From Closterium sp. NIES-65 (lineage: Eukaryota > Streptophyta > Zygnematophyceae > Desmidiales > Closteriaceae), in assembly GCA_948144175.1 (NCBI GenBank), contig CANXME010000053.1, forward strand, positions 1,798,001 through 1,862,000: DNA of 64,000 nucleotides. The letters run 5' to 3'. The number at the start of each line of letters is the position of its first letter. Position 1 is the first letter of the stretch. Position numbers and translations under genes: made by a program. The notes below the pieces were generated by a model. That model was not told the origin of the DNA and made no database searches. It saw nothing but the letters and a program-made list of their open reading frames with translations. Shown piece after piece: positions 20,045 through 54,255 of this stretch.

Positions 20045-20120
20045 GGCGACGTTGTGCGGATGATTTCTCGAATTGACAATTACGAGTGGGTAGTAAAATG
20101 CATTGCGCTGGAACTTCTAA

Positions 20121-21321: not shown

Positions 21322-24300
21322 ATGCGCAGGAAGCGCGGCGGGACAGCTGGCGGGCCCTCATTGGGCATCCGCGTGGGCGCGGGGGCCGCAGCGACCGTCA
21401 GCCTGCTCGGCGTTTCTGGGGGAGGCGGCATCTACGGCAGCGCTGGCGGAGGAGGCTCGGGGCGCGGAAGGGGGGGAGGGGGGGGAACGGGAGGCGGAAT
21501 AGGGGGCCCAGCAGCGGGGGGAGTGGGGGTGATGAAGCTTGTACAGGAGCACTATCTTCGGGAGGACATCAAGTGCGGGTCTGCGCTGTGCTACGCGTGC
21601 TACACGCACCTCCCCCGCCATGACCCGCTGCTCTTTGGGGATGTGCTCCCCTGCCAGCTGCTCCCCCGAGAGCTGCTCTGGCAGTTCCCTGAGGAAGGCC
21701 TGCTGCTTTACGCTGAGGCGGACCGGCCTTCTTTGTCCGCTAGTGCGAGACACTACGTGGTGAGTGAGGGAGGGAGGGAATGTGTGAGTGAATGAGGGAG
21801 GGAGTGATTGAGGTTGTGGATGAGTGAATGAGTTGACGAGTTCACACAAGAATCAGTGAGTGAGTGAGGTTATCTCTCTGCCGCAGGTCGTCTTCCAATG
21901 TTTCCCTCGGTCTCTCGTTTGCCTCTCATCATCGCCTTGCTTCCTCCTCTTCTCTTCCCGCGCCTTCTCTCCCGTGCTCCCCTATCTCAATCTCCCCTCT
22001 TCCCCTCTCTGTGCCTCGTCCACCTTCCACCTGTGAAGTCGAGGGAGAAGTGGAGGAAGAGAGGCGATGATGAGGGACAAGAGAGAGATTGCGGAGAGCA
22101 TTCGAAGACAACCTGCGGCAGAGAGATAGCCTCACTCACACATTTTCCACTTTATGTTGACAAATGCTACTAATGTTGGCCTTTGTGCCTCTTCGACCGT
22201 CCACTCTTTACCCCCTTCCCGCCCTCTCCCCCCTCCCTACTCTCCTCCCTCCCACCTTCGGCCCCCCGTTTCACCCTCTCCTGCCCTCTCCCCTCCTCTC
22301 CCCTTCCCCCCTTCATCCCCTCCCTCCCCCCAGATCCCCGATGCAGCCTCGCTGGTTGAATTCATGGAGGTGTGGGAGCTACCACCGATACGCCACACAA
22401 TCGTGCTGGGCTCCGTGCTCAAGGAGGTGTGACCAGAAAAGAGTGCCCAAGGGGAAAGAGTGGGGGAAAGTGAGGAGAAGGTGGATGGATGGTTGGTGGG
22501 TGGGCTCTGGGCTCCATGCCCAAGGAGGTGCGTGGCAGGAGAGGTTGTGGAGGGGGGGAGGGGGAGGTGGAGGGAAGTGGTAAGTTGGGTGGGTGGGCTC
22601 TGGGCTCCGTGCCCAAGGAGGTGCGTGTGTGACAAGAGCGGGTTGCCAAAAGTGGGGAGGGAGGGGGTTGTAGAAGTGGGTGGGTGGGTGGGTGGGTAGG
22701 TGGGTGGGGTCTGCGCTGTGTGCGTAAGGAGGTGCGTGGCAGGAGAGTTTGGGGGAGGAGTGCGTGGAGTGAAGGGGGAGGTGAGGGGAAGGTGGATGGA
22801 TGGGTTGGTGGGTGTGCTCTGAGCTTCGTGCCTTAAGGAAATGGATGTGTGACATGAGTGGGTTGCTGAAAGGAGCGGTGGGAAGGGTTTGAGGGAGTGG
22901 GCCGGCGGGTTGGTGGGTTGACATGGCAGCAGGAGGTAGCATAAACTGGGGGTATATGGCAGGAGGTAGCATGAGCTGGGGGTACATGGCAGGAGGTAGC
23001 ATGAGCTGGGGGTACATGGCATGGCAGGAGGTAGCATGAGCTGGAAGAATATGGAATGTGTTCTCTGTCCTGTCCCTTCTCTCCCATCCTAACCTTTCCT
23101 CCTCACATCTCCTATCATCCCACTTTCCACTTCCTTCCCATATCTCATCCCCCATCCCCTCTCCCTTCTCTCCTCGCCCCTCTCCCCCCCTGCGCGCCCC
23201 TCTCTCCCCTCCCCTCCATTCGCCTTCTCCCTCCCAGGTGCTTCACTACTCCAGCGCCTATCACGCGGGACGCATCCGGTCCGTTCCTCCCACACCCACA
23301 CCTTGCTGCCCTTGCTGCCGCCCTTGCTGCCGCCCTTGCTGCCGCCCTTGATGTCCTATTCTCCTATCTACTGCCCCGCTCCTTCTCTGTACCTCCCATG
23401 GTTGCATTGCTTAGTATACCCTGGCCTGCTTTCAATTCCCAATCCCATTCTAATTGTTTCTTGGAAAGACTAATCTCTCTCACCCCTCTCCCCTAGTCTT
23501 TCGCCCTTTCCTCGCGTTGTCCACTCAGTTGCTCCGTCTCAACAAGACTTCAAGATAAGTTCGTCCTTGACCCCCTTGGTCTCACCTACACGATGCTCCT
23601 TCCTCTCATCACTTCACCCCATCGCAGTGCTCTGTGTGAAGATGGGCGGAGGGAGAGCTCCTACTTTGACGACCGGCACTTCCTCTTCACGCACACCATG
23701 GCGGAGGAGAGGCGGGCGAGCTTGAGAGTCACACTTGGTGATGCTGCTTCTGCTGAAGGTGGGTGTGCGGGTGTTTGAGTTGAGTGTGTGACAGTCACCT
23801 CGTGACAAGGAACCTTCATTGGTTCGTCACTGCTGGGCTGAAGAAAGACACTTGGGGTGAGGTTGTGTCGGCTGAAATTGTGTGTGATGGACGCATGTGT
23901 ACGTGTGTGTGTGGGGGCATGTGTGGTGTGGTGTGGTGTGGTGTGGTGTGGTGTGGTGTGGTGTCTCTCCACAATATGCTCTCATGCCCCCTGAGCAAAG
24001 CTTCGTTCGCATGCTCTTTACCATTCCTTCTTCTCACATCGAGCTACTATGCTTCTCATCCCCTCCGTTAGGTTGACTTATGCATCATGAGTTTATCAGC
24101 TTTGCATCTCACATCAAGAGCAAGTGTGCTTCTTGACCCCTCACATCTCACCAACCCAGTGGATCTGTGTCACGTGGTGGCGGCAGCACAGTGGTTCTCA
24201 ACCCATCTGCACCGCACCATACCCATCCTCATCGTGTCGGACGAGCTGGCAGCAGCACGTGGCAGCATGCCATTGGGCGAGGTGCTGCAGGCCGTGCAGC

Positions 24301-27300
24301 GTAACGAAGTGGTGGTACGTGCGGGTTTTTGGGTGGTACGTGCGGGTTCTTGGGTGGTACGTGCGGGTTCTTGGGTGGTACGTGCGGGTTCTTGGGTGGT
24401 ACGTGCGGGTTCTTGGGTGGTACGTGCGGGTTCTTGGGTGGTACGTGCGGGTTCTTGGGTGGTACGTGCGGGTTCTTGGGTGGTACGTGCGGGTTCTTGG
24501 GTGGTACGTGCGGGTTCTTGGGTGGTACGTGCGGGTTCTTGGGTGGTACGTGCGGGTTCTTGGGTGGTACGTGCGGGTTCTTGGGTGGTACGTGCGGGTT
24601 CTTGGGTGGTACGTGCGGGTTCTTGGGTGGTACGTGCGGGTTCTTGGGTGGTACGTGCGGGTTCTTGGGTGGTACGTGCGGGTTCTTGGGTGGTACGTGC
24701 GGGTTCTTGGGTGGTACGTGCGGGTTCTTGGGTGGTACGTGCGGGTTCTTGGGTGGTACGTGCGGGTTCTTGGGTGGTACGTGCGGGTTCTTGGGTGGTA
24801 CGTGCGGGTTCTTGGGTGGTACGTGCGGGTTCTTGGGTGGTACGTGCATGCTGTGATGTAATCTCTGTTGCGTGCATCAATTTCGAGACTTCTTTGGACT
24901 TACAGGAGAGGTGTCAAGACATATGACCTCCTTACTTCGATTTCTGCAACGTCAGCCTTCTCTCTCCTTCCTCCTTTTCCTGCTCCCAACTTTCAATGCA
25001 GTTCCTTGTCTCGCCTTTTGTCTTTTTCGTAGTTGCCCCCTCTGTCCCCCATCGCCCATCTCCCATCTCCCATCTCCCTGTGCCACAGGTGATGACAAAC
25101 GAGGCATTCTTCCAGACCTACTACGGCCACTGCACCACTGTCACCACGCTCATGGACTCTCTCGTGAGCACCCTGCTCAACCTTCTATTGTACCTGGTAA
25201 CCACACGTGTTACTTGGAGCATAAAGTCACTGCTGCACCACTGTTGCCACTCATGGACTCTTTAGTAAGCACACCCAACGCTCTACCATACCATTATGGT
25301 AACCACCACTTTCACCACTCTCATGGACTCTCTTGTGAGCACACTCAAACCTCAACCTGATAACCGCGCACGTACGGTTACTCGGGATTCCGTCTTGCGT
25401 TCGCTGTTTCTGATTTTGATTCGCATTGTTTTTCCTCTACCATAGCTTCAGACTTGTGATTCAAGTCAGAGTAGGTCTTCCACTTCTTTTCAGTTACCGC
25501 AGTGCTCCTGTTTGACCAGTCCCCATCCGCATCCCCAACCCAACCCATTCTTATCCCCATCCCCATTCCTTTATGTTCTTAGCGTGAGCATCAACCAACT
25601 GTTGACCAGGACCCCCTCCACCAGCATGCCTTTGCTCCTGTCTTCCTTCCCCCCCACCAGGCCACCCAGCATGCCTTGCGCCTCTCGTCATCCTTCAAAT
25701 CCACGTCTGGCAGCGGCAGGCTCAGTGGCAGCAGGTTCGGAAGCGGCAGGCTCGGCAGTGGGAAGCAGCGCAAGGAGGTGTTCACACCGCACCTGTCAAG
25801 TGAGTGGAGAACCACTTGACATGGAGTAGGAGGAATTGACACGGTGTGCAAGGTGACTAGGTCTGTGACAGTTGCAGAGCAGGGGTGCAACAATTCTTTA
25901 GGCGCCACAAAAATAGCAGGGGTGCGGCGAGGAGTTCTGGTGCTTTGAAAAGTGACACCGAAAGGTTCCTTCCCCATGGCCACTTTCATTGACAAATGCT
26001 TTGGAATGGAAATGCAATGCTGTATGTGCTCATTCACACCGTCTCCCTGTCGTTGCCATAACCCATTTCCTATTTATCATGATCTCTGATTGGTTTCTGC
26101 ATGGTGCCAGTTCTCCAATGTCCAGGCACAGCAGTAGCAGAGGGCATCGCAGTCGGAGCTATCCGAGTGGGAGTGCTGCCTACTGCAATCACCACTGTTC
26201 CTATATCCCATTTCCCATTCGACAGGCTCAGCAGTGGCGGAGGGAGTGGCAGTTGGAGCTATCCGAGTGGGAGTGCTGCACATCACAACCACCGAGCCTT
26301 TCAAAGCCACCGTCAGACCCAAGTGAGGGAAGAGTGCTCTTGACTGGCGTTGACTTATTTTATTCGTGTGGTAGAGGGGGTGGCAGTGAGGGGCTATTTG
26401 TGTAAAAATGCTGCACGACACAACCACTGAACCTTTCAAAGCCACCGTGATGCACAGGTGAGGGCGGAGTGCTCTTGACTGCCGTTGACTGGCATTGACT
26501 TCCAATTCCTCCTGACTTTGCAGTTCTTTATCTCTTTGCTGCCTTCTTGCGCCATAGCCATTTTCGTCCCCATGCGTTCCCCTTATCCGTTTTCCCTTCC
26601 ACGCGTCCCATCCTTCCCATCCAGTCGTAAGCAGGTGCACGCCCCCACATCAACATCACCATCCCCACATCAACATCACCATCCCCACATTCTAATTTAT
26701 ATTTGAACGTCAACCACCTCAACCGCGCTTCTTCCTGAAGGCTCATCTGCTCAGCCGCTCACAGTCTGCCCCCTTCCCCATGCCCTCTGCCCCACGCACC
26801 CCCACCCCACCACTCCTCTAATACAGTCGGAAGCAAGTGCGCGCCCCCCAGAGTGACATCACCATCCCCACATGGCGCCACCGCAACCACGCTCTGCATG
26901 TCAGCCTTACTACTCCTTATCCATTTGCCCACTCCCTCCCGGCTTATCCCCTTCCCCTTGCCCCCCCCCCTCCCGTCCTTTTCTTCCAGTCGCAAGCAGG
27001 TGCACGCCCCCCAGAATGACATAACCATCATCTCATGGCGCCAGCTCAACCGCGCTCTGCCTGTCAGCCTTGCCCTTTTTTCCCACTCCCCGCCTACCCC
27101 GTTCCCCCTGCCCCTTGCTCCTTGCCCCATGCCCCATCCTTCCCTTCCAGTCGCAAGCAGGTGCACGCCCCGCAGAATGACATCACCATCCTCTCATGGC
27201 GGCAGCTCAACCGCGCTCTGCCATTCTACCTCATACCCCCTATCCCCTGCCCCCCGCCCCCTACCACTGCCCCATGCCCCGTCCTTCTCTGCCTTCCAGT

Positions 27301-30300
27301 CGCAAGCAGTTACATTCGCCACACAGCGACATCACCATCCTCTCATGGCGGCAGCTCAACCGCGCTCTGCCAGGCGACACCGTGGCTGTCAGGCTGCTGG
27401 GCAAGCGCAGGGTGGGGGACAGACAGGTGGGGGGTGGGCACATGGGGGGAGGGCACATGGGGGGCGGGAAAATGGGGAAAGGGCACATGGGGGCCGGGCA
27501 GATGGGGGGAGGCGGCGTGGAGACGAGGGATGGGAGAAGGGGTTGGGGAGAGAGTGAGAAAGAGGGGGAGGGGATGAGGGGGGGAGAGGAGGGTGTGGTG
27601 GGCGTGAGGAGGTATGAGGGTGGGCGGAGTGAGAGAACGGGAGATGGAGGTGCGGTTGTTGAGGGTGGCAGTGCCGGTGGGGAGGATGGGGATGAGGGTG
27701 CCGGCGGTGGTTGGGTTGGTGGTGGTGGTGGTGGTGGTGGTGGTGGTGGTGGTGGTGGTGGTGGTGGTGGTGGTGGTGGTGGTGGTGGTGGTGGTGGTGG
27801 TGGTGGTGGTGGTGGTGGTGGTGGTGGTGGTGGTGGTGGTGGTGGTGGTGGCGCCATTGCTGCTGCCACATCTGACGCTCACCTCCCCCCGACCCCTTCA
27901 GCCTGGGATGAGGCACCCCCTCCCCCAGCCTCTTCAGGGTGGGGGGAAGCCCCGCCCCCGCCTCCCCCTACTGGCTGGGGGGAAGCTTCGCCTACTCCAC
28001 CTCCACCCACAGGCTGGGAAGAAGCCCCCCCTCCCCCACCCCCTACTGGCTGGGGGGAGTCCCCTGCCGCCCCTCCCCCTCCCCCTACTGGCTGGGGGGA
28101 GGCTTCCGCTGCTTCCCCTACCCCTGGGTGGGGGGGTGGAGGGTGGAACGGGGGAGGGGTGAGGGATGGAGGAGGGGACGATCGCAGGGGACAGGCGGGG
28201 TGGCAGGCGAAGGAGCAGGGGCATGGAGGCTGGGGAGGGCTTGGCGATGGGCAGGGGCAGGGGGGTGGGGATGGAGATGTGTACGGACAGGGGCAGGGGG
28301 GCGGGGATGGGTATGGAGATGGGTATGGGCAGGGGCAGGGGGGTGGAGATGGGTATGGGCCGGATTACAGTGGGTGGCAGGCGGGTTGGGATGGGAATGC
28401 GCAGGGGCAGGGGGATGGAGGGGAGGAGCAGAGTGGGAGCAAGGTGGGGCAGGAGAGGTGGCACCGGAAACGACCTGCAGCCTCGCACTGGAATCAGCAC
28501 AGTGGGCGTGGGGGTGGGCATGGGGAGGACTGGGGAAACGGGGAGTATGAGGAGGGTGGGGAGGAGGAGGGGTATGAGATGGTGGGGGAGGTGGTGAGTG
28601 TGCTGCACCGAGTGAGCCGTGACTTTGTGGTTTGCCTTAAAGACCACGTGGATGAGGTGGAGGGGGGTGCTGTGGGGGCGAGAGGTGGGGCGTGGCTGTG
28701 GGGGGAGGAGGAAGAGGAGGAAGAAGAGGAGGAAGAGGAGGAGGAAGAGGAGGAGGAAGAGGAGAGTGAAGAGGAAGAGAGTGACGAAGAGGAGGGAGAG
28801 GATGAACAGGAGGAAGAGGAAGGAGAGGAGGGAGGGGAAGAGGAGGCAGAGGAGCAGCACAGGCATAGTGTGCTGTCAGCTGCACATGAGCCGGCAGAAG
28901 GAGCAGCAGTGCATGCTGTGAGAAGCTCCAGCACAACCGCATGCAGCGAGCCGGACACCACGCCGTACAGCAGTGTGCGGGGTGGCAGCAGCATGAGGAG
29001 CGAGAGCATGGGCGTGGGGAGCAGGGAGAGCAGCATGCGGATGCACAGCAGCATGGCGGCGAGCAGCACAAGAGCCAGCTCTCGCAGCAAGCTCTCCCGT
29101 GCCTCCTCCTCCAAGTGAGTGCCTCCTCCTCCAAGTGAGTGCCTCCTCCTCCAAGTGAGTGCCTCCTCCTCCAAGTGAGTGCCTCCTCCTCCAAGTGAGT
29201 GCCTCCTCCTCCAAGTGAGTGCCTCCTCCTCCAAGTGAGTGCCTCCTGCTCCAAGTGAGTGCCTCCTCCTCCAAGTGAGTGCCTCCTCCTCCAAGTGAGT
29301 GCCTCCTCCTCCAAGTGAGTGCCTCCTCCTCCAAGTGAGTGCCTCCTCCTCCAAGTGAGTGCCTCCTCCTCCAAGTCAGTGCTTGACTGTGTCACAATAA
29401 GTATTCCTGCTTTCTTGTCCTAAGTAACCTACTACTTCTCACATAGAGTCAGGTACAACACTCTCTTCTGTCTAAAGTGTACAACTAGACTAGGCTGTAC
29501 CCTGGTTGGGGTTAGAAATATTGCAGTGGTTCAGCTGATTCGCCTCCGGAGTTGGGTAGGGAGGTTGCTGAAGCTCCCATAACATTGGCTCAACATTGAC
29601 AAATGGTTTAGGAACCCTTCAGAAATACCCAACCCAAATGACTGCTGGGGGACAATGATTCCTCTAACTAGTGTTTTCAACCAAACCCTCAACCCCTTGG
29701 TTTCCCATCATTATGTGAACTCGTACTTGAGATCCTTTTTACCCCTTAGACCTGCGTGACCCTTTTTCTGCTTGTTCTGCCCCTTACCTGTCTGCCCCTT
29801 GCTTATCCGCCCCTTGCCTATCCGCCCCTTGCCTGTCCGCCCCTTGCCTATCCGCCCCTTGCCTATCCGCCCCTTGCCTATCCGCCCCTTGCCTGTCCGC
29901 CCCTTGCCTATCCGCCCCTTGCCTGTCCGCCCCTTGCCTATCCGCCCCTTGCCTATCCGCCCCTTGCCTATCTGCCCCGTGCCCATGTGTTTTCCGGCAG
30001 AGCAAGGATGGGCTTCCTCTGTGTGCCCATGGATGCTCGCCTGCCGCTGGTGAGTGTTGCTGCGTACGAGAGTCCTAACAGCGTCAGGAAGAGCTGTGTT
30101 GGAAATCAAGTGTACATGGTAGTGAGAAGGAGAGGGGGGTTGGTTTGGCCAACCGTATTGACCTCAATAAATATGCTCGGTTGAACAGCTATCGAGGGTC
30201 CCAAACATCTTGGTCAAAGATCACTAGCGGCCCACTAATCCGCAAGGAACTTTGTGGGTCAGATAATTGAATCAAGGGAAGAATACATTCCCAACCCAAC

Positions 30301-42300: not shown

Positions 42301-42385
42301 GCAGTGGAGTGCGTGCACTCGCCCTTTAGAGTCGACTCACGAGTTACCTCGTTACAGTGCAATAGTGTCAGGCGGAGAGTATCTG

Positions 42386-42420
<35 letters not shown>

Positions 42421-45400: not shown

Positions 45401-48400
45401 TATGCCGAACATGACACTCCCACACTCCACCACACTCACCCACAGTGAAGTGTGGTCACAGTTGGCATTGCCATCTGTCCACCCATCCCATACTCACCTT
45501 GTTGGCTCCTATGGTGTGCCACATGCTGCCATGTAGGCTGTTGTTCCAGCCTGGCCCACATGTGCAACATGTGGCCTCAATTGCTAGCTTGGCAAGGTTG
45601 GCTAGCCCTGCCCTCAGCTTTGAGGTGCTGCAGCTAGCTTCAAGAGTTCAGCCACATAAATGTGGCTTCCCACTTCTCTAGAACTCATCCTTGGAAAGGA
45701 CATTGCTCTAGCCTTTCAGGCTTGTACCATCTTCCTACTAAGGATATATTGTTCTTCTCTCATTGTGCCTCAAGTTCACCGATCCTCATTCTACATGCTA
45801 TCAGAGCAAGGCTTCTAGCTTAGTGAACGTTGCACACTTCATGGCTCAAGTTGAAACGCCTCTCGGTCGGCACACCCTTCCCATCTTGGAACCAGATGGT
45901 TCCAACTTCATTCCATGGAAGAAAAAGATCTGCTACATCTTCAATGTCCTCGGGCTGATCTCCCTCCTTGGAGATCCCAAGGTTGCTTCGCGTCCTTCAA
46001 TCTCCTCTTCCACAACCAGCGGTGGAGAGACTACCGAAGGCAACAGCGGTGCAGCCCCTAAGACAGCCCATTCGATTGCTTCGCTGCCGGATGAAGAAAA
46101 AGAGGAGCATGCATACTATCTTCTCATGTCAGCCGTCCATCCTCAACTATCGCTCACTCTTGCTCAAGCCAACACGACAAAGGATATGTGGGGATGCATC
46201 ATGGCGCGGTTCGACTGCATGGGCAACCATGCACAAGTGGCTCTCCTCCGGGATCTCATCACTACACGGATGGACCCAACAACAAGTCTTCGCTCCTACT
46301 TTGATCGAGTTGGAAACCTTACACACCAACTCAAATCTGCCGGCTTTGAGCTACCATCATGGGTGGTGGTAATCTCCATCATCCTCAACCTTCCGGACTC
46401 GTTCAAGACCCTTACTGAAACCATTTGCACCGTGAAAGACATAAAGTCTATGACGGTTGAATACCTACAGTCACGCCTACTCGATGCCGATTGGGAGCGG
46501 TCACAATCTGGTACAAGCCGTAACATGGAGGGTGCATACAACCTCAATTCCCAGCCCTCCCACCCTCTTCGCTCCGGTTCACGCCAGTCGCCCACCTGCC
46601 GTTACTGCAAGAAAACAGGTCACACCATCGATGAATGCTTCAAATTGAAGAAGAAGAAAGAGCTTGAAGAATGCTCTAAACGGGAGAAATCCGTCTTCCA
46701 ACCCTCGGTGCATGTCTCCACCAGCTCCTCTGCTGAAGCTACTCCGACCCCCACACCACCTCCTGCCCCATCAACCCCTCAGTCCGTACCTGATTCCCGG
46801 TACGTGGACATTGCTGTCAGCACCAGCCACCACCCCATCTTCTCCACATGGACTCCTCTCGTCGCTGCTGTCTTCATTCTCACCATCCTCCTTCTCCTCC
46901 TCCTCTTCCCTTATGGGGCTCCCTACGCATCGGCATTCACGGCCTCCTCATTCAATATGGAGCGGACTTCGTCGTGGCTGGTGGACAGCGGCGCATCCTC
47001 CCATATCTGCTCGGATCGTTCGCTGTTTTCGTCTCTCAAGAAGCCCAACGAAGAGATCCTTGTTCGTTTTGGTGGAGGAGAGACTTACAAGGTCTTGGGA
47101 GTCGGCACGGTGGTGGCTACTCTTCGGTCACCAACATCGGAAACCACCATTCAGCTTGACAACGTTCTATTTCTCCCTTCATCAGTTCACAACCTGCTCT
47201 CTGTTCGTGCGCTTGGTGCTGCCGGCGTTGCCGTCTCGTTCCCCGCTGCTGGGCGCGTTGCTCTCACATCTGATGACGTTCCTATTGGCGAGGGCTACAC
47301 CCGCAACAATCTGTTTTATCTTCAACTGCATCATGGGAGCAGTGCTGCTCCTTCTATCAAGCCAACTGCATGTCCAGCCTCCACCACCACCTCCTCGTAC
47401 CTCTGGCATCGTCGTTTCGGGCATCTCAACATGCAGGCCTTGTCAACACTTCATCGGCAGCAGCTGGTCACCGGTCTTCACCTCTCCTCCACCTCGATTC
47501 CCCCCTGCATCTCGTGCTATCGTGGGAAACAAACACGTCAGCCATTTGGCGTGTCCCATTCTCGCACCACAGCCCCACTCCAACTCATTCACTCAGATAT
47601 TGCTGGACCGCTTTCATATGGAACTACCATTGGCGGCGCTCGCTACCTTCTCACCTTCATCGACGACTATTCCCGCCACATTACAGTGTATCTCCTACGC
47701 CACCGGTCGGAGGCACTTTCATGCTTCAAGGCTTACGTCACTCGGGTGCACAACATGCATTCCCCACACACCATCAAAACCTTTCGCTCTGACGGTGCCT
47801 TGGAGTTCACTTCCAAAGCCTTCACTTCATTCCTTACAGCTCATGGCATCGCCCGCCACCTCTCCACGCCATACACACCTGAGCAAAATGGAGTAGCTGA
47901 GCGGGCCAACCGGACTTTACTTGAGATGGTCCGTTCCATGCTCCATGATGCACACATGGACAAAGGCTGGTGGGGTGAAGCCGCTCTTACTGCTGCCTAT
48001 CTTCGTAATCATGCCATTAGTCGGGGTGGTTCAACTTCTAAGACTCCCATGGAACTATGGACCGGTGCACGTCCGGATGTATCACACCTCCGCATCTTCG
48101 GTTCACCCGTCTCGGTCCTCATTCCTTCCCAACGGCGTTCTAAGCTCAACGACCGAAGCACGGCCGGCATCATGGTTGGATATGGTCAGCTCGACGGCAC
48201 CAAAGCTTACCGCATCTATATCCCATCTCAGCACCGTGTCATCCTTTCTCGTGATGTCATCTTCATGGAGCCCTCTGCACCGCCTTCCGACGACTCTCGC
48301 GACCCTCCATCGTCATCTCCACCCACATCCTCCTCACTACCTCCTCCTACACACCCTTCTTCCTTGGACCCAATCTCCCCTCCCTCTCCTTCCCCCACCA

Positions 48401-51400
48401 TACCTTCCTCCACCAACCCCCACCCACAATCCCCAAACCTGCCCGCACCAGCCGCATCTTCTCCTCCTCCATTGTTTTCCAACCTTCCTCTGCCCTCGAC
48501 GCCGCAAGACTTTCACCTTCCATCCTTCTCTCCTCCCTCTTCGCCTCCCCCTCCCCATTGCACGACTCGCTCCTCCCCGCCATCCCCTTCAGCTCTTCCC
48601 GATCCTTCCCTTTTCTCCTCCCTCAAGGTCTTACCATCCCCTTCCGAACCCATTGACTTCACTCTTCCTCCTCTTTCCAACACCTCTGCCAATGCTGCCC
48701 TTCACCATCATTACGAACCTCAAACCATTCATGAGGCTCGTACCGGCCCTGATGCTGCCGAATGGATCAAGGCTGCTGATGCGGAACTCGCTGCCCTGCA
48801 CGCTAATGACACCTACAGCATTGTTCCTCGACCACCCAAGTGCAAGCCGATTCCATGCAAATGGATTTTCAAGGTCAAGGAGAACGCTGATGGTTCTATT
48901 GAACGCCGCAAAGCCCGCCTTGTTGTCAAAGGCTTCAAGCAACGTGATGGTGTTGATTTTCATGACACCTTTGCTCCTACCGTCCGCTTCGCCACCCTCC
49001 GCTTGTTTCTCACCATAGCTGCCGCTTTCAACCTGGACGTCCATCAGCTGGACATCTCCAACGCCTTCCTCAACGGCACCCTTGATGAGATTCTCTACAT
49101 GATGCAGCCTCCCGGTTATGACCTTCCGGCGGTCCATGGTGTTGAGCAAGTTTGTCTCTTGCACAAACCGCTGTACGGGTTGAAGCAAGCTCCGCGATGC
49201 TGGTACCGCAAGCTTCGTGAGGAGCTTGCTGCCTTTCACCTCTTTGCTGCTCGTGCGGACCCCGGCCTCTTCATTGCTCCTCCTCACTCACCTTATCGGC
49301 CTACAGCTGCATCCTTCTTCATGCTTCTCGTCTATGTTGACGACCTCATCATTCTCTCCTCCTCCTCCTCTCTTCTTGCCTCATTCAAGCATGCCCTTTC
49401 ATCTCGCTTCAAACTTCGTGACCTCGGACCTCTCTCCTACTACCTTGGCTTTCACATCACTCGTGATCGAACTTCCCGCACTCTCCACCTTCATCAATCC
49501 AAATTCATCACCTCCATTCTAGACACCTACTCCTTCTCTCCACTGAACCCCGCTGCCACTCCCATGGACACAAAGTTTCAGCCACCCGTGACTTCCTCCC
49601 CGCACTCCTCCTCCTTCCCTTACACCTCGTTTGTCGGCTCCATCATGTATGCCATGGTGGGGACCCGTCCCGACCTCGCATATAGCGCTGGAGTTCTTGC
49701 TCGTCACCTTCACGATTGGTCTACTCCTCACGTCTCGGCTGCCAAACGCATTGCTCGCTACTTGAAAGGGACTACCTCCCTTGGGCTTCTCCTTGGTGGC
49801 ATTCCCGACACCCTCGAACTTCATGGCTGGTGTGACGCCTCTTGGGGACCGGAGGGGGAGCTGCGTCGCTCCGTTACGTGCTACTTGTTCTTCCTCGGTC
49901 CGTCACTCATCTCTTGGCAGTCCAAACGCCAAGCCGTCGTTGCTACCTCTTCATGTGAAGCTGAATATTACTCTCTGGGCGCCGCGGTGCACGAGGCATT
50001 ATGGCTTCGTTCGCTCCTTACTGCAGTTGGACTTCCCCCTACCGGCCCCACCCGTATCTCGTGTGACAACAACAGTGCCATCATTCTCGCCAAGGACGAT
50101 GGCGTCTTTCATCCCAAGGCCAAGCACATCGACATCAAGCACCATTTCATTCGCGATCATGTTGCCGACCACTCCATCACCCTTCACTATGTTCCTACTC
50201 AAGACAACCTCGCTGACATTGGGACCAAGCCTTTGCCCCGTGACCCTTTTCTTCGCATCCGTGGTCTTCTCGGTCTCACCCATGTTTCCTCTTGAGGCAC
50301 CCTACCCCGGGGACATCCTTGAGGGGGGGTGTTGTGGAAGCAAGAATGTCCCAGTGGGTACCTTTGGTCTTAGTGGTCGCGGGTTCAACTCTCATCGGCA
50401 GCACCTTCTCTTCTCATTATGCCGAACATGACACTCCCACACTCCACCACACTCACCCACAGTGAAGTGTGGTCACAGTTGGCATTGCCATCTGTCCACC
50501 CATCCCATACTCACCTTGTTGGCTCCTATGGTGTGCCACATGCTGCCATGTAGGCTGTTGTTCCAGCCTGGCCCACATGTGCAACATGTGGCCTCAATTG
50601 CTAGCTTGGCAAGGTTGGCTAGCCCTGCCCTCAGCTTTGAGGTGCTGCAGCTAGCTTCAAGAGTTCAGCCACATAAATGTGGCTTCCCACTTCTCTAGAA
50701 CTCATCCTTGGAAAGGACATTGCTCTAGCCTTTCAGGCTTGTACCATCTTCCTACTAAGGATATATTGTTCTTCTCTCATTGTGCCTCAAGTTCACCGAT
50801 CCTCATTCTACAAGATGCGCTCAGGTGCTCCTTCAAGAGCTTGCCAGTGCCTTTTTTTGTTAGAGGGAGAGGAGAATGAACCCGGTACAGTGAGATGAAT
50901 ATTGTAGCTAATACAGTTTACAGTTTCGTCGATATGCAGTGGTTAATTTAATTGCAATTTGTGATTCACAATCTTTACCAACTATTGTACACTCCAAGTT
51001 GCAATGGCACTCTGACGGCAAGACAAGGAGGGCACAGCACAGCAAGGTTGCTCCTTGCACACGTGCCATCTGGGAGGCGCTTTCTAATTCCAAGTGACGG
51101 CAGTGCAAGGAGGGCACGGAAGGTGGAGGACGGCAGCGGCGCTTTCAGATTCTCTCTGCGCTCCTTCCCTCCTCCCATCTTTATAGGACAAGGATGGCAT
51201 GGCAGTGCTGCCTCGCAAGCACACTGACTGGGAGGCAGAGCAGGCGGAGCAGCAGCAGTTTCGCCACCGCCTGCGAGTGAGAGTGGAGACCAGCGATGGC
51301 CGGCGCGTGGCGCGGGAGAATCTGGGGGTTACTGCTGCTGCTGGTGGTGGTGGTGATGGGGATGGGGATGGGGATGAGGAGGTGGAGAAGGAGGGGGAGG

Positions 51401-54255
51401 AGGGGGAGGAGGGGGAGGAGGAGGGTCGTGAGGGGCAGAGCGGCATGGATGTGGACGCTCCTGCGTGTGTGAAGATTGTGGTGCGTGCATGTGTGGTGTG
51501 GTGTGGTGTGGTGTGGTGTGGTGTAGTGTGGTGTGGGGCACATGGCATGCGGCACATGGCAGCGGCACATGGCACAGCACATGGCACAGCACATGATCGA
51601 CCACCACATCTGATCATGCCACACCGTTCAGCACCACATGTTTTCCACTCTTTCCAGCTCTCATCTTCTCCAACCACCAAGCCGTCGCCTCCCCTCCCTT
51701 CCCCTACCCTCCCTCCCCTCCCCCCGTTCTCTGTATCCCTACCTTCTCTCGTGCTCCATGGTTTAAAGCAAGGGTCATGCCATGTCATTCCAGGCACAGC
51801 CATTCCTTCAGCATTTTGCCACAATTCACATTCTCCAAAACACACCAATTCTCCCCTCTCTTCATGCTCTTCACTCTCCCCTGCTCCCTCCCCTCCCCGT
51901 CCCCCCTTCTCAAATTCTTTTCCAGGATTTCCAGCAGGGTTTTTCTGTTGTTGAGTACTGGCTCTTCCAGACCCTCTGGGTCCAGCTGTCAGCCTCAGGT
52001 GATTTTCAGGTTCAGGTAATTTTCAGGTTCAGGTGATTTTCAGGTTCAGGTGATTTTCAGGTTCAGGTGATTTTCAGGTTCAGGTGATTTTCCAGGTTGA
52101 TGTGGATCCCAACATTAAGGTGACATTGCTTGCTTCTGAAGGTGAGCTAGCAGTCGAAACACATTTCCAATGAATGCTTTTTGTCTTGGGAGCATTATCC
52201 TGACAACTGACACCAGCACGCGCACCTCCTTCACCTCTGTCGATCCCCTTCCCTCCAGCTCCCCCTCCCTCCACCTTTTTTTCCACCTCCTTCGTTCCCA
52301 GGCTCCATCGCTCGCTTCCCCACCCTCAAGATGGCGATGCTAGCAGATGAGCCAGTCAAATTGCTTCCAATTTCTCCTCAACAACGTTTCTTCACTCTCC
52401 TTCTCCATCCCATCCCTTCCTCCCAGGCCCCAACACGCATGTCCCCACCCTCAAGATGGAAACACTAGCAGATGTGCTACTCAAACTTCTTCTCATTTCT
52501 TTCTAATCACATACCTTTCTTTCCAATTACATATCTTTCTTTCCAATCACATATCTTTCTTTCCAATCACATGTCTTTCTTTCCAATCACATATCTTTCT
52601 TTCCAATCACATATCTTTCTTTCCAATCACATATCTTTCTTTCCAATCACATATCTTTCTTTCCAATCACATGTCTTTCTTTCCAATCACATATCTTTCT
52701 TTCCAATCACATATCTTTCTTTCCAATCACATATCTTTCGTTCCAATCACATATCTTTCTTTCCAATCACATATCTTTCTTTCCAATCATATATCTTTCT
52801 TTCCAATCATATATCTTTCTTTCCAATCACATATCTTTCGTTCCAATCACATATCTTTCGTTCCAATCACATATCTTTCTTTCCAATCACATATCTTTCT
52901 TTCCAATCACATATCTTTCTTTCCAATCACATATCTTTCTTTCCAATCACATATCTTTCTTTCCAATCACATATCTTTCTTTCCAATCACATATCTTTCT
53001 TTCCAATCACATATCTTTCTTTCCAATCACATATCTTTCTTTCCAATCTCATATCTTTCTTCTCGCTCCATCGCTACCCTCAAGATGGAGATACTAGCAT
53101 CTGCAATATTTAAGTTGCTTCTGATCTCTTCTTATTCACGTTTCTTCACTCTCCTCCCTCCCTCCCTCCCTCCCTCCCTCCCTCCCTCCCTCCCTCCCTC
53201 CCTCCCTCCCTCCCTCCCTCCCTCCCTCCCTCCCTCCCTCCCTCCCAGGCTCCATCGCTCGTTTCCCCACCCTCAAGATGGAGATACTAGCAGATGCACA
53301 CCCCTCAGCCGTCACAGCGAATCTCAAGAGCCAGTCAGAGGCTGCCAGCTCAGCTCCGCGAGGGTTGATGGGCGACGAGGAGGGGGGGAGTGGAGAGGGA
53401 GCAGAGGATCCCACCGTTTCTCACTCTCACTTCGGGCCCTGGAGGGACGAGGAGGAGGAGGAGAGTGAGGAGGGGGGAGAGGGAGGGGAGGGAGGGAATG
53501 GGGAGAACAGGCAGAGGAGGGAGAAGGTGGAAAAGGGGCTCCTGGGAGCTGGAGATCAAGGGAACTTGACGCAAGGGTCAGTGTTTTCAGGAAAGAGGCT
53601 TGCAGAGGAGGGGTTTCCTGTAGATGTGGATTTTGAGGCCGATGCTGCTGCCGCTGCCACTGCCGCTGCTGTGGCTGCCGCTGTGGTGGCCGGGGAGGGG
53701 GAGGAGGAGGAGGAGGCTGAGGTGGAAGAAAGAGGGGCAGGAGGGATATGCAGGGGAGACGAGTGGGCGGGACAGAAGGGAGGAACGAAGGGGGGACTAA
53801 GAGGGAAGGGTGGGAGGAAGGGTATGGCAAGTACAGTTGAGGAGGGAGAGGAGGTTGTTGGGAGTGCGGATGGGGGTAGAGGAGTGAGTGGGCGGCGGGT
53901 GATTGGGAGGCTTGCTGTTGTGGAAGCTAGCAGTGCCAGCATCACTGCTGATGAGGGTGGTAGCAGCAAGAACACAGCTAGCAGTGGTGGCAGCACCGAC
54001 AGGATCGCAGCCAGCAGCGGTGCTGCTGGTGCTGGTGCTGCTGGTGCTGCTGGTGCTGCGGGTCAGATGGATGCGTTTCGTGGGCGGTGCGGCGTGCACG
54101 ATCTCATGGAGGCCATGCGTGCGCTGCACATGGCAGGAGGTATGTGGTGCCACGTGGCTGCAGGTTTGATGATGCCACGTGGCAGCAGATTAAGGATGCA
54201 ACGTGGCAGCATTTTAAGAATGCCACATGGCAGGGGGTGGAGCGCAACAGAGTGA
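21322..54255 (+). CDS. DIS3L: DIS3L-like RNB-family 3'-5' exoribonuclease (about 30 exons)
   Basis: Homologues are processive 3'-5' exoribonucleases; human DIS3L works on the cytoplasmic exosome. Domains in order: N-terminal '[12 protein letters not shown]' and a PIN-like region lacking the DTN endonuclease motif; cold-shock-type parts ('[13 protein letters not shown]', '[17 protein letters not shown]'); the RNB catalytic domain with all four aspartates in '[15 protein letters not shown]' and '[16 protein letters not shown]'; an S1-like part ('[15 protein letters not shown]'); and a C-terminus like DIS3L ('[14 protein letters not shown]'). Similarity across the PIN-like part ('[12 protein letters not shown]', '[13 protein letters not shown]') favours DIS3L over DIS3/RRP44. 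The exons whose ends were resolved join in frame. Protein about 2,100 residues, twice the human length, because of poly-Gly, Pro-rich, Gln/Gly and Glu tracts. The start is uncertain (ATG at 21322 or 21145). The stop is at 54253. Exon 32718-~32770 has an unresolved 3' end. Confidence 0.82.
22410..22845 (+). repeat. degenerate copies of an exon end with its donor
   Basis: The end of the exon at 22334-22426 (GGGCTCCGTGCTCAAGGAG|GTG) recurs at about 22505, 22595, 22710 and 22815 at roughly 100-bp spacing, with growing divergence. Confidence 0.65.
22924..23042 (+). repeat. 30-bp minisatellite, four copies, intronic
   Basis: Unit core GGCAGGAGGTAGCATGAGCT followed by GGGGGTACAT; four near-identical copies. 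Confidence 0.85.
23921..23963 (+). repeat. GGTGT pentanucleotide repeat
   Basis: About eight tandem GGTGT units; a similar run recurs at 51495-51535. Confidence 0.85.
24315..24850 (+). repeat. 21-bp array, each unit opening with a GTACGT splice donor
   Basis: About 25 near-perfect units beginning GTACGTGCGG and ending TTGGGTG. The array starts at the 5' splice site of the intron after exon 24160-24314. The unit is 7 codons (VVRAGSW) and open in the exon's frame, so read-through or use of any later donor would keep frame. Confidence 0.92.
25142..25345 (+). repeat. three copies of an exon end with donor
   Basis: The end of exon 25089-25163 (CTCATGGACTCTCTC|GTGAGC) recurs near 25250 (donor GTAAGC) and 25325 (donor GTGAGC). 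Confidence 0.75.
26128..26465 (+). repeat. three copies of the exon at 26226
   Basis: The functional copy (26226-26322) is flanked by a degenerate copy starting near 26130 and another near 26370. The third has a TAA inside and retains donor GTGAGG. Shared sequence includes GAGCTATCCGAGTGGGAGTG. Confidence 0.75.
26622..27365 (+). repeat. five copies of the 5' end of the giant exon with acceptor
   Basis: TTCCAGTCGCAAGCAGGTGC-like starts occur near 26625, 26827, 26990, 27150 and 27300. Copies 2-5 extend through the 'DITI..W+Q/HLNRAL' codons. Only the last continues into the complete exon. Confidence 0.85.
27300..29114 (+). other. DIS3L: DIS3L-like gene: giant low-complexity exon
   Basis: One 1,815-base exon. 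It starts with '[18 protein letters not shown]' and '[16 protein letters not shown]', passes through a Gly/Met-rich region, about 45 consecutive Gly encoded by pure GGT, Pro-rich units '[10 protein letters not shown]', 'GQGQGGGDG' units and '[18 protein letters not shown]', and ends with about 60 mostly Glu residues and a Ser-rich stretch. Only the first 40 and the '[11 protein letters not shown]' residues align with DIS3L; the rest is insertion. The Gly run is one frame of a (GGT)n microsatellite. Confidence 0.75.
27717..27851 (+). repeat. (GGT)n microsatellite, about 45 units, coding for poly-Gly
   Basis: Uninterrupted GGT triplets inside the open frame of the DIS3L-like gene. Confidence 0.95.
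29115..29394 (+). repeat. 20-bp array, each unit opening with a GTGAGT donor
   Basis: Unit GTGAGTGCCTCCTCCTCCAA; thirteen copies with intact GTGAGT and a final one decayed to GTCAGT. It starts exactly at the exon 27300-29114 boundary and duplicates the last 14 exon bases in each unit. Twenty is not a multiple of three, so successive donors shift the frame. Confidence 0.95.
29770..29988 (+). repeat. 15-bp pyrimidine-rich array before an acceptor
   Basis: About fourteen units of CCGCCCCTTGCCTAT or CCGCCCCTTGCCTGT, ending just before the TTTTCCGGCAG acceptor at 30000. It resembles an expanded polypyrimidine tract. Confidence 0.9.
30430..30600 (+). repeat. ~59-bp repeat with perfect TTTTGAGTCGACTCAAAA palindrome
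   Basis: Nearly three copies of a unit containing ACCTGAATCAACAGTATGGA and GGGCAAGCCCCAAGAAC. Two copies contain the 18-base palindrome (30482-30499 and 30538-30555). Confidence 0.9.
31989..32262 (+). repeat. ~125-bp direct duplication
   Basis: 31989-32114 and 32126-32262 share GTAGATAGCTGCAAGCTCTG, ACCGACTAGTAAGT and ATGATTGATCTAGGCT, with a few differences and a small insertion. Intronic. Confidence 0.85.
33775..34209 (+). repeat. 29-bp array, fifteen units, each exon end plus donor
   Basis: Unit starts GTGAGCAACATGCTGCC and ends AGAGGCGCTCAG, i.e. a donor followed by a copy of the last 23 bases of exon 33644-33774. Fifteen units, then a sixteenth donor at 34210. There is no sequence variation apart from the first exon copy (CTACC instead of CTGCC). 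Confidence 0.95.
34533..36053 (+). repeat. 129-bp array of an exon 5' part with its acceptor, twelve copies
   Basis: Copies start at 34533, 34682 and then every 129 bases to 35972. Each has a CCACCAG (first: CTGCAG) acceptor, the '[21 protein letters not shown]' codons and a pyrimidine-rich stretch. Only the last copy runs into the rest of the exon. The period is divisible by three and copies 2-12 form one open frame of 43-residue repeats. Each unit also contains GGCA|GTGAGT, a good donor sequence inside the exon. Confidence 0.95.
36470..37135 (+). repeat. five degenerate copies of the exon at 37048
   Basis: CTCTCGTACGCCCAGGC-like starts at about 36475, 36608, 36760, 36882 and 37048, each followed by GGAGTGCATCC and a GCGGA/GGAGGAGCA element. 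The first four are internally diverged; the last is taken as functional. Confidence 0.8.
37252..37356 (+). repeat. 18-bp array (CCCTCAGGGCTAACAACG), about six copies
   Basis: Intronic; near-perfect units. Confidence 0.9.
37371..37815. repeat. long inverted repeat, ~210-bp arms, ~20-base spacer
   Basis: Left arm about 37371-37585 and right arm about 37607-37815 are reverse complements with roughly 85-90% identity by eye. Shared stretches include GTGAAAATAGAGCTTCGG and GAAGAGCAGCTTCGGGAGAT. Read from either side an arm encodes a heptad-like coiled coil ([21 protein letters not shown]). It lies in the intron between exons 37048-37179 and 38270-38389; its transcript would fold into a long hairpin. 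Confidence 0.88.
37905..38330 (+). repeat. four copies of the first half of the exon at 38270
   Basis: CAGGAGCTGCGGCGGCAGAG-type starts near 37912, 38032, 38150 and 38270. Copies 2 and 3 are 118 bases long and nearly identical. Only the last continues into 'ELRFEFDE'. Confidence 0.9.
38330..38695 (+). repeat. three copies of the second half of the same exon with donor
   Basis: The segment from GCTGCGGTTCGAATTTGA to CAGGAGATCCCG|GTGGG recurs near 38468-38540 and 38605-38675, spaced about 135 bases. A fourth, very degenerate copy is near 39205-39255. Confidence 0.85.
39373..39570 (+). repeat. 33-bp array, six copies, intronic
   Basis: Unit TCCTCCCTGTTGTTGTACCA plus CACACCCCCTTCG; near-perfect. 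Confidence 0.93.
39785..40089 (+). repeat. three copies of the exon at 40025
   Basis: GGCCATCAGATCGACGCGGT at about 39780, GGCCATCAGATGGATGTGGT at about 39886 and the functional ACCATCAGATGAATGCGGT at about 40018. Confidence 0.7.
39811..39866. other. 16-bp perfect inverted repeat enclosing a palindrome
   Basis: TGTTTTTGAGACGTCT (39811-39826) pairs perfectly with AGACGTCTCAAAAACA (39851-39866). The 24-base loop contains TTTTGAGTCGACTCGAAA. Both arms and loop follow the GAG-core-CTC pattern found elsewhere in this gene. Confidence 0.9.
40399..40635 (+). repeat. copies of an exon end with donor (CATCTCATGCATGTGAGG)
   Basis: The donor region of exon 40340-40412 recurs near 40517, and its downstream intron sequence (GTGATGCATGTGGATG) recurs twice. 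Confidence 0.65.
41030..41110 (+). repeat. TCTCC pentanucleotide repeat in a polypyrimidine stretch
   Basis: About fifteen CTCTC/TCTCC units within a long pyrimidine tract upstream of the acceptor at 41210. Confidence 0.9.
41912..42112 (+). repeat. 11-bp array (CCATCCCCATG), about eighteen copies
   Basis: Nearly perfect; located just before the acceptor at 42130. Confidence 0.93.
42131..42470 (+). repeat. second copy of the exon at 42131, with (CAG)n expansion
   Basis: CAGGCGGAGTACCTACCAGC at 42128 and CAGGCGGAGAGTATCTGCCA near 42370. The second copy contains a run of CAG triplets and a GTGAGT donor near 42457. Confidence 0.75.
42540..43115 (+). repeat. three copies of the 5' end of the exon at 43062
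   Basis: The 'YSHFTSPI' codons recur near 42548 (CCACTTCACCTCGCCCATTC), near 42870 (CTACTCCCACTTCACCTCCC, with an extra Leu triplet and a TGA downstream) and at 43062, the functional copy. Confidence 0.85.
43808..44142 (+). repeat. 36-bp array, nine copies, intronic
   Basis: Unit with GCACAGGCGTACTCTCGTAC and CATGGTGTGGTGCCAT; essentially perfect. Period divisible by three, hence open frames on both strands without coding meaning. Confidence 0.95.
44283..44700 (+). repeat. three partial copies of the exon at 44453
   Basis: Upstream copy near 44290 (CAACAG|ATAGCGGCCCATCTGAAC), functional exon 44453-44566, and a downstream copy of its 3' half with donor near 44645-44697 (GATCAGCCCTTGGTGGAGCG). 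Confidence 0.88.
45225..45290 (+). repeat. three copies of an exon end (GGTGCTCTTTCAG|GTGAGG)
   Basis: CCAGGTGCTCTTTCAGGTGA, then CCAGGTGTCCTTTCAGGTGA, then CCAGGTGCTCTTTCAGAAAT. Confidence 0.85.
45313..45795 (+). repeat. 5' LTR of element D (483 bp)
   Basis: TG...CA termini; should contain the element's promoter. A short tRNA-like A-box/B-box pair occurs near 45350-45375 but without anticodon-arm spacing. Confidence 0.95.
45841..50295 (+). CDS. copia Gag-Pol polyprotein of element D
   Basis: 1,484 codons from the ATG at 45841 (the first ATG after the primer-binding site that starts a Gag-like protein) to TGA at 50293. Domains: Gag, CCHC zinc knuckle near residues 252-266 (C-x2-C-x4-H-x4-C), a hydrophobic segment of about 20 residues near 340-360, aspartic protease DSGA near 381, integrase HHCC and DDE ('HSDIAGP', 'FIDDYSR', 'NGVAERAN') about 520-690, an 80-residue Pro/Ser linker region after integrase, RT with '[10 protein letters not shown]' near 1165, RNase H with 'SCEAEYYSL' near 1372. 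All key residues are present, so it is a candidate autonomous element. Unusual is the hydrophobic stretch before protease. Confidence 0.96.
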   Translation: MAQVETPLGRHTLPILEPDGSNFIPWKKKICYIFNVLGLISLLGDPKVASRPSISSSTTSGGETTEGNSGAAPKTAHSIASLPDEEKEEHAYYLLMSAVHPQLSLTLAQANTTKDMWGCIMARFDCMGNHAQVALLRDLITTRMDPTTSLRSYFDRVGNLTHQLKSAGFELPSWVVVISIILNLPDSFKTLTETICTVKDIKSMTVEYLQSRLLDADWERSQSGTSRNMEGAYNLNSQPSHPLRSGSRQSPTCRYCKKTGHTIDECFKLKKKKELEECSKREKSVFQPSVHVSTSSSAEATPTPTPPPAPSTPQSVPDSRYVDIAVSTSHHPIFSTWTPLVAAVFILTILLLLLLFPYGAPYASAFTASSFNMERTSSWLVDSGASSHICSDRSLFSSLKKPNEEILVRFGGGETYKVLGVGTVVATLRSPTSETTIQLDNVLFLPSSVHNLLSVRALGAAGVAVSFPAAGRVALTSDDVPIGEGYTRNNLFYLQLHHGSSAAPSIKPTACPASTTTSSYLWHRRFGHLNMQALSTLHRQQLVTGLHLSSTSIPPCISCYRGKQTRQPFGVSHSRTTAPLQLIHSDIAGPLSYGTTIGGARYLLTFIDDYSRHITVYLLRHRSEALSCFKAYVTRVHNMHSPHTIKTFRSDGALEFTSKAFTSFLTAHGIARHLSTPYTPEQNGVAERANRTLLEMVRSMLHDAHMDKGWWGEAALTAAYLRNHAISRGGSTSKTPMELWTGARPDVSHLRIFGSPVSVLIPSQRRSKLNDRSTAGIMVGYGQLDGTKAYRIYIPSQHRVILSRDVIFMEPSAPPSDDSRDPPSSSPPTSSSLPPPTHPSSLDPISPPSPSPTIPSSTNPHPQSPNLPAPAASSPPPLFSNLPLPSTPQDFHLPSFSPPSSPPPPHCTTRSSPPSPSALPDPSLFSSLKVLPSPSEPIDFTLPPLSNTSANAALHHHYEPQTIHEARTGPDAAEWIKAADAELAALHANDTYSIVPRPPKCKPIPCKWIFKVKENADGSIERRKARLVVKGFKQRDGVDFHDTFAPTVRFATLRLFLTIAAAFNLDVHQLDISNAFLNGTLDEILYMMQPPGYDLPAVHGVEQVCLLHKPLYGLKQAPRCWYRKLREELAAFHLFAARADPGLFIAPPHSPYRPTAASFFMLLVYVDDLIILSSSSSLLASFKHALSSRFKLRDLGPLSYYLGFHITRDRTSRTLHLHQSKFITSILDTYSFSPLNPAATPMDTKFQPPVTSSPHSSSFPYTSFVGSIMYAMVGTRPDLAYSAGVLARHLHDWSTPHVSAAKRIARYLKGTTSLGLLLGGIPDTLELHGWCDASWGPEGELRRSVTCYLFFLGPSLISWQSKRQAVVATSSCEAEYYSLGAAVHEALWLRSLLTAVGLPPTGPTRISCDNNSAIILAKDDGVFHPKAKHIDIKHHFIRDHVADHSITLHYVPTQDNLADIGTKPLPRDPFLRIRGLLGLTHVSS
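50330..50812 (+). repeat. 3' LTR of element D (483 bp)
   Basis: No difference from the 5' LTR was found by eye, so insertion was recent on an evolutionary scale. Confidence 0.95.
50818..51186 (+). other. rest of the disrupted DIS3L-like intron
   Basis: Continues the intron to the TTTATAG acceptor at 51186. It begins with CGCTCAGGTGCTCCTTCAAG, possibly another decayed exon-end copy. Confidence 0.5.
51990..52092 (+). repeat. 17-bp array (GTGATTTTCAGGTTCAG) at an exon-intron boundary
   Basis: About six units, each containing both a donor-like GGTGATTT and an acceptor-like TTTTCAG, between the exon at 51926 and that at 52096. Confidence 0.9.
52497..53057 (+). repeat. 20-bp array (TTCCAATCACATATCTTTCT), about 27 copies
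   Basis: Near-perfect pyrimidine-rich intronic array with a few T or G variants. Confidence 0.95.
53149..53246 (+). repeat. (CTCC)n / (CCCT)n microsatellite forming the polypyrimidine tract
   Basis: About 24 tetranucleotide units directly before the acceptor at 53248. Confidence 0.95.

Follow-up and report, generated by a model that had tools for sequence, protein, structure and literature searches.

Tandem duplications of exonic sequence or of exon boundaries are known from scattered cases, in which they leave exon-derived sequence and splice signals within an intron and produce a new intron or a new choice of splice site. Human duplicated genes carry variable tandem repeats over exon-intron boundaries that can alter splicing, and the accessible part of that source counts 27 intron modifications in human segmental duplications (PMC2812944). 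In the green lineage, the introns of Chlamydomonas and Volvox hold repeats concentrated toward the intron ends; the accessible part of the source describes motif arrays near these ends and does not mention copied exon edges (PMC3887541). Fill-in synthesis at staggered breaks gives short (<100 bp), sequence-independent tandem duplications in human and mouse cells, according to the accessible text of PMC8355091. The literature matches listed comprise such intron-gain cases, the intron-end repeats of the two green algae and the human boundary repeats; no title among them reports exon-edge copies in Closterium, within a scope that left most subscription literature outside.

Here we analyze a window of 64,000 nucleotides (the whole stretch of DNA under study) on contig C53 of an 874-Mb, 2400-contig Closterium assembly, in which many exon edges of a DIS3L1-like gene lie beside partial copies of themselves. 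A DIS3 protein stitched from the same assembly is 100% identical to the partial protein of Closterium sp. NIES-64 over 59% of its length, 97-98% identical to the proteins of NIES-54 and Yama58-4 over 59-61%, and 92% identical to that of NIES-68 over 99%. These strain numbers point to the peracerosum-strigosum-littorale complex, to which NIES-54 and NIES-64 belong according to the accessible text of PMC10407611.

Copied exon edges in a DIS3L1-like gene

The gene was typed as DIS3L1-like by PF00773 matches and by tblastn with human DIS3L. Spliced alignment of the protein P0001 with a purpose-written aligner yields 36 exons, some of them weak; exon ends including 24314, 25163 and 29114 were placed by hand, and the exon models depend on protein similarity throughout. 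The features, in window positions on the forward strand (+), are these:

21529..53676 (+): gene for a DIS3L1-like RNB exoribonuclease, with some 28-36 exons predicted
22334..22426 (+): exon; copies of its donor end follow downstream, near 22506, 22598 and 22709
24160..24314 (+): exon with hand-set end; donor within a 21-bp x 25.6 array, 24311-24847
25089..25163 (+): exon; donor-end copies at 25250-25287 and 25320-25357
26226..26322 (+): exon; acceptor-side copy near 26122-26153, donor-side copy at 26390-26490
27300..29114 (+): long exon, taken as one by hand; three to four acceptor-side copies within 26599-27231, donor in a 20-bp x 14 array at 29099-29382
29779..29983 (+): counter-example, 15-bp intronic array that stops before the acceptor at 30001
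30443..30591 (+): counter-example, 56-bp intronic array with no predicted junction inside
33262..33334 (+): exon whose donor falls in a 27-bp x 2 repeat at 33330-33383, non-significant in the copy test
33644..33774 (+): exon whose donor falls in a 29-bp x 16.5 array at 33749-34227
34530..36107 (+): 129-bp array of about 11 copies, each holding the acceptor and roughly the first 70 bp of the exon; the array closes with the intact exon 35972-36107, and the other assembly copy has 1052 bp less
37048..37179 (+): exon with three to four decayed copies of its acceptor side upstream, within 36446-36950
38270..38389 (+): exon; a 119-bp array on the acceptor side starts at 37909, and two copies of the donor side reach 38677
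39372..39576 (+): counter-example, 33-bp intronic array with no predicted junction inside
40025..40089 (+): exon; decayed acceptor-side copy at 39886-39921
40340..40412 (+): exon; donor-end copies from 40514 (46-bp repeat 40521-40628)
42131..42201 (+): exon; decayed downstream copy at 42366-42458 with a CAG expansion
43062..43315 (+): exon, far end uncertain; two acceptor-side copies at about 42545 and 42868
43806..44139 (+): counter-example, 36-bp array that holds none of the junctions in the model used; the other assembly copy has 684 bp more
44453..44566 (+): exon; acceptor-side copy at 44282-44316, donor-side copy at 44667-44698
45164..45238 (+): exon; donor in a 22-bp repeat at 45220-45266, to which the other assembly copy adds 22 bp
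45313..50815 (+): LTR element, Copia type by our own reading of a long frame; intronic, missing here in the other assembly copy, with no repeat pairs found inside
53249..53333 (+): exon; weak, distant acceptor-side copy near 52234 (identity 0.73; coordinates for this copy counted with the LTR element removed)

A first-pass annotation had placed duplicated exon edges at 18 positions of this gene, and all 18 fall within 1-2 nt of a predicted edge, 16 of them being edges in the P0001 alignment. The edge at 25163 is found with P0003 and by hand (P0001 ends that exon at 25189), and that at 24315 by hand only (P0001 and P0004 end the exon at 24281). Copies exist as described: in a local-copy test, from which the edge at 53249 was left out, significant copies lie within 2 kb of 16 of the 17 named edges, the exception being 24315, where the 36-bp test window missed the 21-bp x 25.6 array. 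Their range from perfect to badly decayed is likewise borne out, from perfect arrays down to about 66% identity. Two generalizations went too far. Rather than nearly every exon edge, 21 of 56 in DIS3L are duplicated, and the duplicated piece does not always contain a splice site, as 21 of the 44 DIS3L families (exon-only families excluded) are wholly intronic. The gene holds 47 duplication families, of which 21 span a junction, 21 are intron-only, 2 are mixed and 3 are exon-only.

Several further features accompany the copies. The long open frame of 27300-29114 contains several low-complexity repeats, many with a period that is a multiple of three, which encode Gly-, Glu- and Trp-Gly-rich stretches. 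CAG runs lie in or beside decayed exon copies at 42387-42417 (24 bp longer in the other assembly copy) and 42651-42678 (6 bp shorter). At 42376-42378, inside the decayed copy of the 42131 exon, the other assembly copy alone has a 338-bp insertion that bears inverted repeats. Beside the 36-bp array at 43806..44139, the P0001 alignment proposes a weak exon at 43701-43777.

The other assembly copy of the DIS3L locus lies on contig C1662 and, in a comparison by block alignment, aligns through the copy-bearing regions at 95.6-99.6% identity by block, with array lengths differing. The copies are therefore not simply an artefact of assembly. From window position 20050 to 58380, the two locus copies show 27 length differences of at least 6 bp, many of them changes in array length and others LTR or short insertions. 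Closterium cells multiply in the haploid state, and gene duplication is genome-wide in the complex, as stated in the accessible text of PMC10407611; thus, the two locus copies may be duplicated segments rather than alleles. Opposite window position 24896, C1662 carries an LTR element (Copia type by our own reading) in a different intron from the element in the window, so both insertions are recent. Some 6.2 kb of unrelated sequence, apparently another insertion, splits the 20-bp donor array (window 29099-29382) on C1662.

Spread, sizes and placement of the duplications

Repeated exon edges also occur in DIS3 on contig C1810 and in MCM2, MCM3, MCM4, MCM5 and MCM6, all on contigs other than C53; the MCM genes were modelled with human proteins. 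Across the seven genes of this one genome, 72 of 172 junctions are duplicated (DIS3L 21/56, DIS3 16/38, MCM2 8/13, MCM3 6/14, MCM4 12/17, MCM5 4/22 and MCM6 5/12), in a small, non-random sample of two families (2 RNB, 5 MCM). Exons scoring <25 were dropped (<45 for MCM in the event-based test), and for DIS3 the event-based test used 19 exons, 17 agreed by P0005 and P0006 and 2 from P0005 alone. By our own count of Pfam matches, overlapping, repeated exon matches appear in 3 of 4 split RPB2-like loci and in 4 of the 8 MCM-domain loci having more than one match. The deposited DIS3L-like protein P0003 (EukProt) contains, again by our own count, a unit of about 46 residues (138 nt) around a single exon edge that is repeated several times, which suggests that the same duplication habit may occur in another source. 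One exon start is repeated in two of the four deposited predicted DIS3 proteins of Closterium compared, those of Yama58-4 and NIES-54, and the repeat is absent from those of NIES-68 and NIES-64 (partial).

Three side observations belong here. The public predicted proteins P0003, P0012 and P0042 hold repeated exon edges that are probably misannotated exons. Near-identical rpoB-like matches in both orientations on C97, C265, C411, C525, C824, C1622, C1848, C1961, C2141 and C2174 may be copies of the plastid genome within the assembly. Some 21 kb from DIS3 on C1810, the 3' part of that gene recurs as a second partial copy, which has exon-edge copies of its own:

C1810:113599-113712; C1540:40897-41010 and 192909-193028: second partial DIS3 3' copy

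Duplication sizes in the seven genes are bimodal, at 9-60 bp and 100-200 bp. With one pair retained per overlapping set, lags <60 bp comprise 10 exon-touching and 49 intron-only pairs, lags of 60-100 bp comprise 1 and 2, lags of 100-200 bp account for 47/75 exon-touching and 29/91 intron-only pairs, and lags of at least 200 bp comprise 17 and 11. Intronic minisatellites, in the sense of 10-60 bp arrays that vary in copy number, are found in the short class only; short units therefore do not explain all repeats. In the spliced models the copies sit within introns next to the edge they resemble, and donor-side copies lie downstream of the exon and acceptor-side copies, with few exceptions, upstream, the arrangement expected from tandem duplication. 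In 26 of 57 pairs, the intron stretch separating exon and copy is similar to the stretch beyond the copy; in the other 31 the intron flank has no significant similarity, though the exon part is 80-98% identical.

Almost all copies carry a single splice site. The inner edge of donor-side partial copies has an acceptor score of at least 0 in 1/44 cases, compared with a fraction of 0.11 in random introns, and that of acceptor-side partial copies has a donor score of at least 3 in 4/54 (random 0.22) and of at least 0 in 12/54 (random 0.33). Complete exon copies with both splice sites number 2, against 44 donor-side and 54 acceptor-side partial copies, and we reject tandemly duplicated (mutually exclusive or cassette) exons, or complete alternative exons, on this count. 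The rarity of a complementary splice site at inner edges, together with the two complete copies, fits removal of exon-adding duplications.

Leaving aside exon-only families (3 of 157), the seven genes hold 154 duplication families, 69 junction-spanning, 71 intron-only and 14 mixed. With random placement on the collapsed map, 42.3 junction-spanning families would be expected (P<=0.0005), so that the excess is 1.6-fold; at identities of at least 90%, 32 are observed and 19.1 expected (P=0.001). Gene by gene, the excess is significant in DIS3L (P=0.0005), DIS3 (0.008) and MCM4 (0.011) and non-significant in MCM2 (0.16), MCM3 (0.46), MCM5 (0.29) and MCM6 (0.42), and also in DIS3L families of at least 90% identity (0.12). 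A window-based test, which is length-weighted so that arrays inflate its intron figure, finds no enrichment, with 19/47 junctions duplicated, 118/300 random intron windows and 26/100 exon-interior windows. At the threshold used, 10 kb of shuffled window sequence gives zero repeat segments. Because selection keeps the exonic source constant, a junction-spanning pair may diverge as little as half as fast as an intron-intron pair and can be detected for up to twice as long, which, we infer, biases detection toward such pairs by a factor of up to about two. Shorter ancestral introns may also have raised the observed ratio.

Repeat pairs number 15-31 per 10 kb in DIS3L and DIS3, depending on the stretch, and 0 to 24 outside them in the window and C1810, where 24 is the second partial DIS3 copy. 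Sparse stretches are window 12-20 kb (0-2.5), 56-60 kb (5) and C1810 beyond DIS3 at 24-39 kb (4-10); dense ones are window 4-12 kb (17.5-20) and 60-64 kb (22.5). These comparison stretches are few and mostly unannotated, and the sparse ones include young LTR elements. The globin gene, with a plant-haemoglobin-like start near 56506 (our own reading, without a Pfam call), sits in 4 kb of sequence that holds 2 repeat pairs.

Both the junction excess, which persists among the more similar families, and the density of pairs in DIS3L and DIS3 relative to the sparse stretches would be expected if a process anchored at exon-intron junctions (R-loops, stalled forks or splicing-coupled breaks) preferentially duplicated exon edges genome-wide. 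However, the 1.6-fold excess lies within the bias deduced above and would be smaller still with shorter ancestral introns, so that anchoring is neither proven nor required. The 100-200 bp class also occurs in intron-only pairs, junction and intron windows are duplicated alike, and other stretches are dense too. The anchoring that the first-pass annotation proposed is weakly supported, by the family-level excess and not by the window-based test; we regard such a process as unlikely. The same annotation had proposed a process specific to the DIS3L-like gene. Dense as duplications are there, this claim is refuted by exon-edge copies in 7/7 modelled genes and by the repeated matches at RPB2-like and MCM-domain loci, and we give it practically no credence. 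Tandem arrays are difficult to assemble, yet an assembly artefact is very improbable, since the alignment to an independent contig runs through the copies, read errors cannot account for the decayed ones, and the DIS3 proteins of Yama58-4 and NIES-54 carry repeats of one exon start.

Divergence of the copies

Compared with their exons, the copies differ with a dN/dS of 0.176 (bootstrap 0.14-0.23) over 68 independent edges, using for each edge the nearest copy of at least 8 codons and <97% identity. In simulations, inert copies reach 0.49, a value that drops to 0.25 when exons are set to evolve 2.8 times faster. Codon positions 1/2/3 hold 217/161/602 mismatches in 2397 codons; copies of at least 97% identity are left out of the codon, replacement and dN/dS totals (9/150 in the codon-position count). 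In-frame stops occur at 2.9 per 1000 codons, against about 7 simulated, and another simulation predicts 13.1 where 5 are observed, a count on the border of the simulated 99% range. Splice dinucleotides are retained in 37/43 donor copies (31.6 expected) and 43/53 acceptor copies (38.0 expected).

Other measures resemble those of introns or of chance. The replacements that the copies carry are no less radical than random mutation would give (mean BLOSUM62 -0.63 vs -0.47, in 113 copies of at least 8 codons), and they are not significantly conservative in any identity bin. The lag modulo 3 is random (49/53/48 for 0/1/2), and on this ground we reject extended exons that read through the copies. SNP density in copies (27/4857) is close to that in introns (240/38151) in six of the seven genes, MCM4 being left out as its second assembly copy was not included. 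Copy SNPs fall 10/3/14 at codon positions 1/2/3, a weak third-position bias (P=0.036).

Faster synonymous evolution of exons was considered as the cause of the coding-like pattern, which it would explain only if the excess seen in DIS3 were general. Exon synonymous differences (29/2486) exceed intron differences (240/38151; P=0.003), driven by DIS3, and the excess vanishes when DIS3 is excluded (9/1768 vs 165/30186, P=1). Exchange between exon and copy is weakly supported: mismatches are weakly clustered (dispersion P<0.05 in 11/81 pairs, longest run P<0.05 in 9/81), and synonymous differences, which are few, are not higher in exon parts with a copy (10/848) than in others (19/1638).

The copies thus differ from their exons mainly at synonymous sites, and two readings would take this bias at face value. 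The copies may be, or may recently have been, translated alternative exon ends, as the low dN/dS, the third-position mismatches, the few stops, the splice dinucleotides kept above expectation and the positions of copy SNPs would suggest. Almost all of them, however, have one splice site only, their frame relation is random, their replacements are non-conservative and their SNP density is close to that of introns; we consider translation of the ends improbable. A broader reading, somewhat less doubtful though still unlikely, is that the copies are not inert, and that coding selection to which they are exposed, translation in the past or a diverged homologous gene serving as template keeps their divergence protein-like, in which case introns would store silently diverged half-exons.

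Probable intron growth and comparison with known systems

We favor, with a probability of roughly 60%, the reading that Closterium introns grow by recurrent local tandem duplication, that units straddling a junction are tolerated and that the copies are mostly inert and decaying. Recurrent duplication, as 9-60 bp minisatellites and 100-200 bp segments seen in all seven genes, would lengthen the introns, and arrays would change length quickly. A unit that straddles an exon-intron junction copies the exon edge and its splice site into the intron, as seen in 26/57 pairs, in which the intronic flank is duplicated too. Such an event may be tolerated because the original, exon-proximal site presumably still yields normal mRNA; retention through harmless splice-site redundancy is the best-fitting of the suggestions made in the first-pass annotation. 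Duplications within exons and complete exon copies with both splice sites would be purged by selection, as their near absence suggests, and the copies that stay would mostly be inert and decay. The 100-200 bp class probably derives from fill-in end joining of staggered breaks; adjacent nicks are also said to give tandem duplications in plants.

Intron growth with inert copies is favored by the 72/172 duplicated junctions, the bimodal lags, the one-site copies, the random frame, the radical replacements, the intron-like SNP density and the differences in array length. Weighing against it are the dN/dS of 0.176, the few stops, the 31/57 pairs with unlike flanks, the 1.6-fold junction spanning and the two-family sample.

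These observations suggest a concrete, countable route for intron lengthening in a relative of land plants. The copies are exon-derived fossils whose starting sequence is known, and they could be used to measure duplication size, rate and neutral decay inside introns. Gene predictions can mistake them for exons, as three deposited proteins appear to have done. The synonymous-biased divergence, if confirmed, would require a new explanation.

Like the scattered cases described previously, the Closterium duplications leave exon-derived sequence and splice signals in introns; unlike them, they give no evident new intron, existing introns lengthen, and 72 of 172 junctions in seven genes are affected. 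The variable boundary repeats of human segmental duplications are similar in kind, as far as the accessible text of PMC2812944 describes them, whereas in Closterium such repeats are frequent, lie in conserved housekeeping genes and include a 100-200 bp class. The repeats of Chlamydomonas and Volvox share the green-lineage setting and the position toward intron ends, and differ, by the accessible part of PMC3887541, in that Closterium copies exon edges. Staggered-break fill-in is offered here as the probable mechanism for the longer class, although the accessible account in PMC8355091 concerns insertions of <100 bp in human and mouse cells, and Closterium is an alga with a 100-200 bp class. Tandem duplication of exon boundaries is itself known; the interest of the Closterium case lies in the frequency of exon-edge copies and their coding-like divergence.
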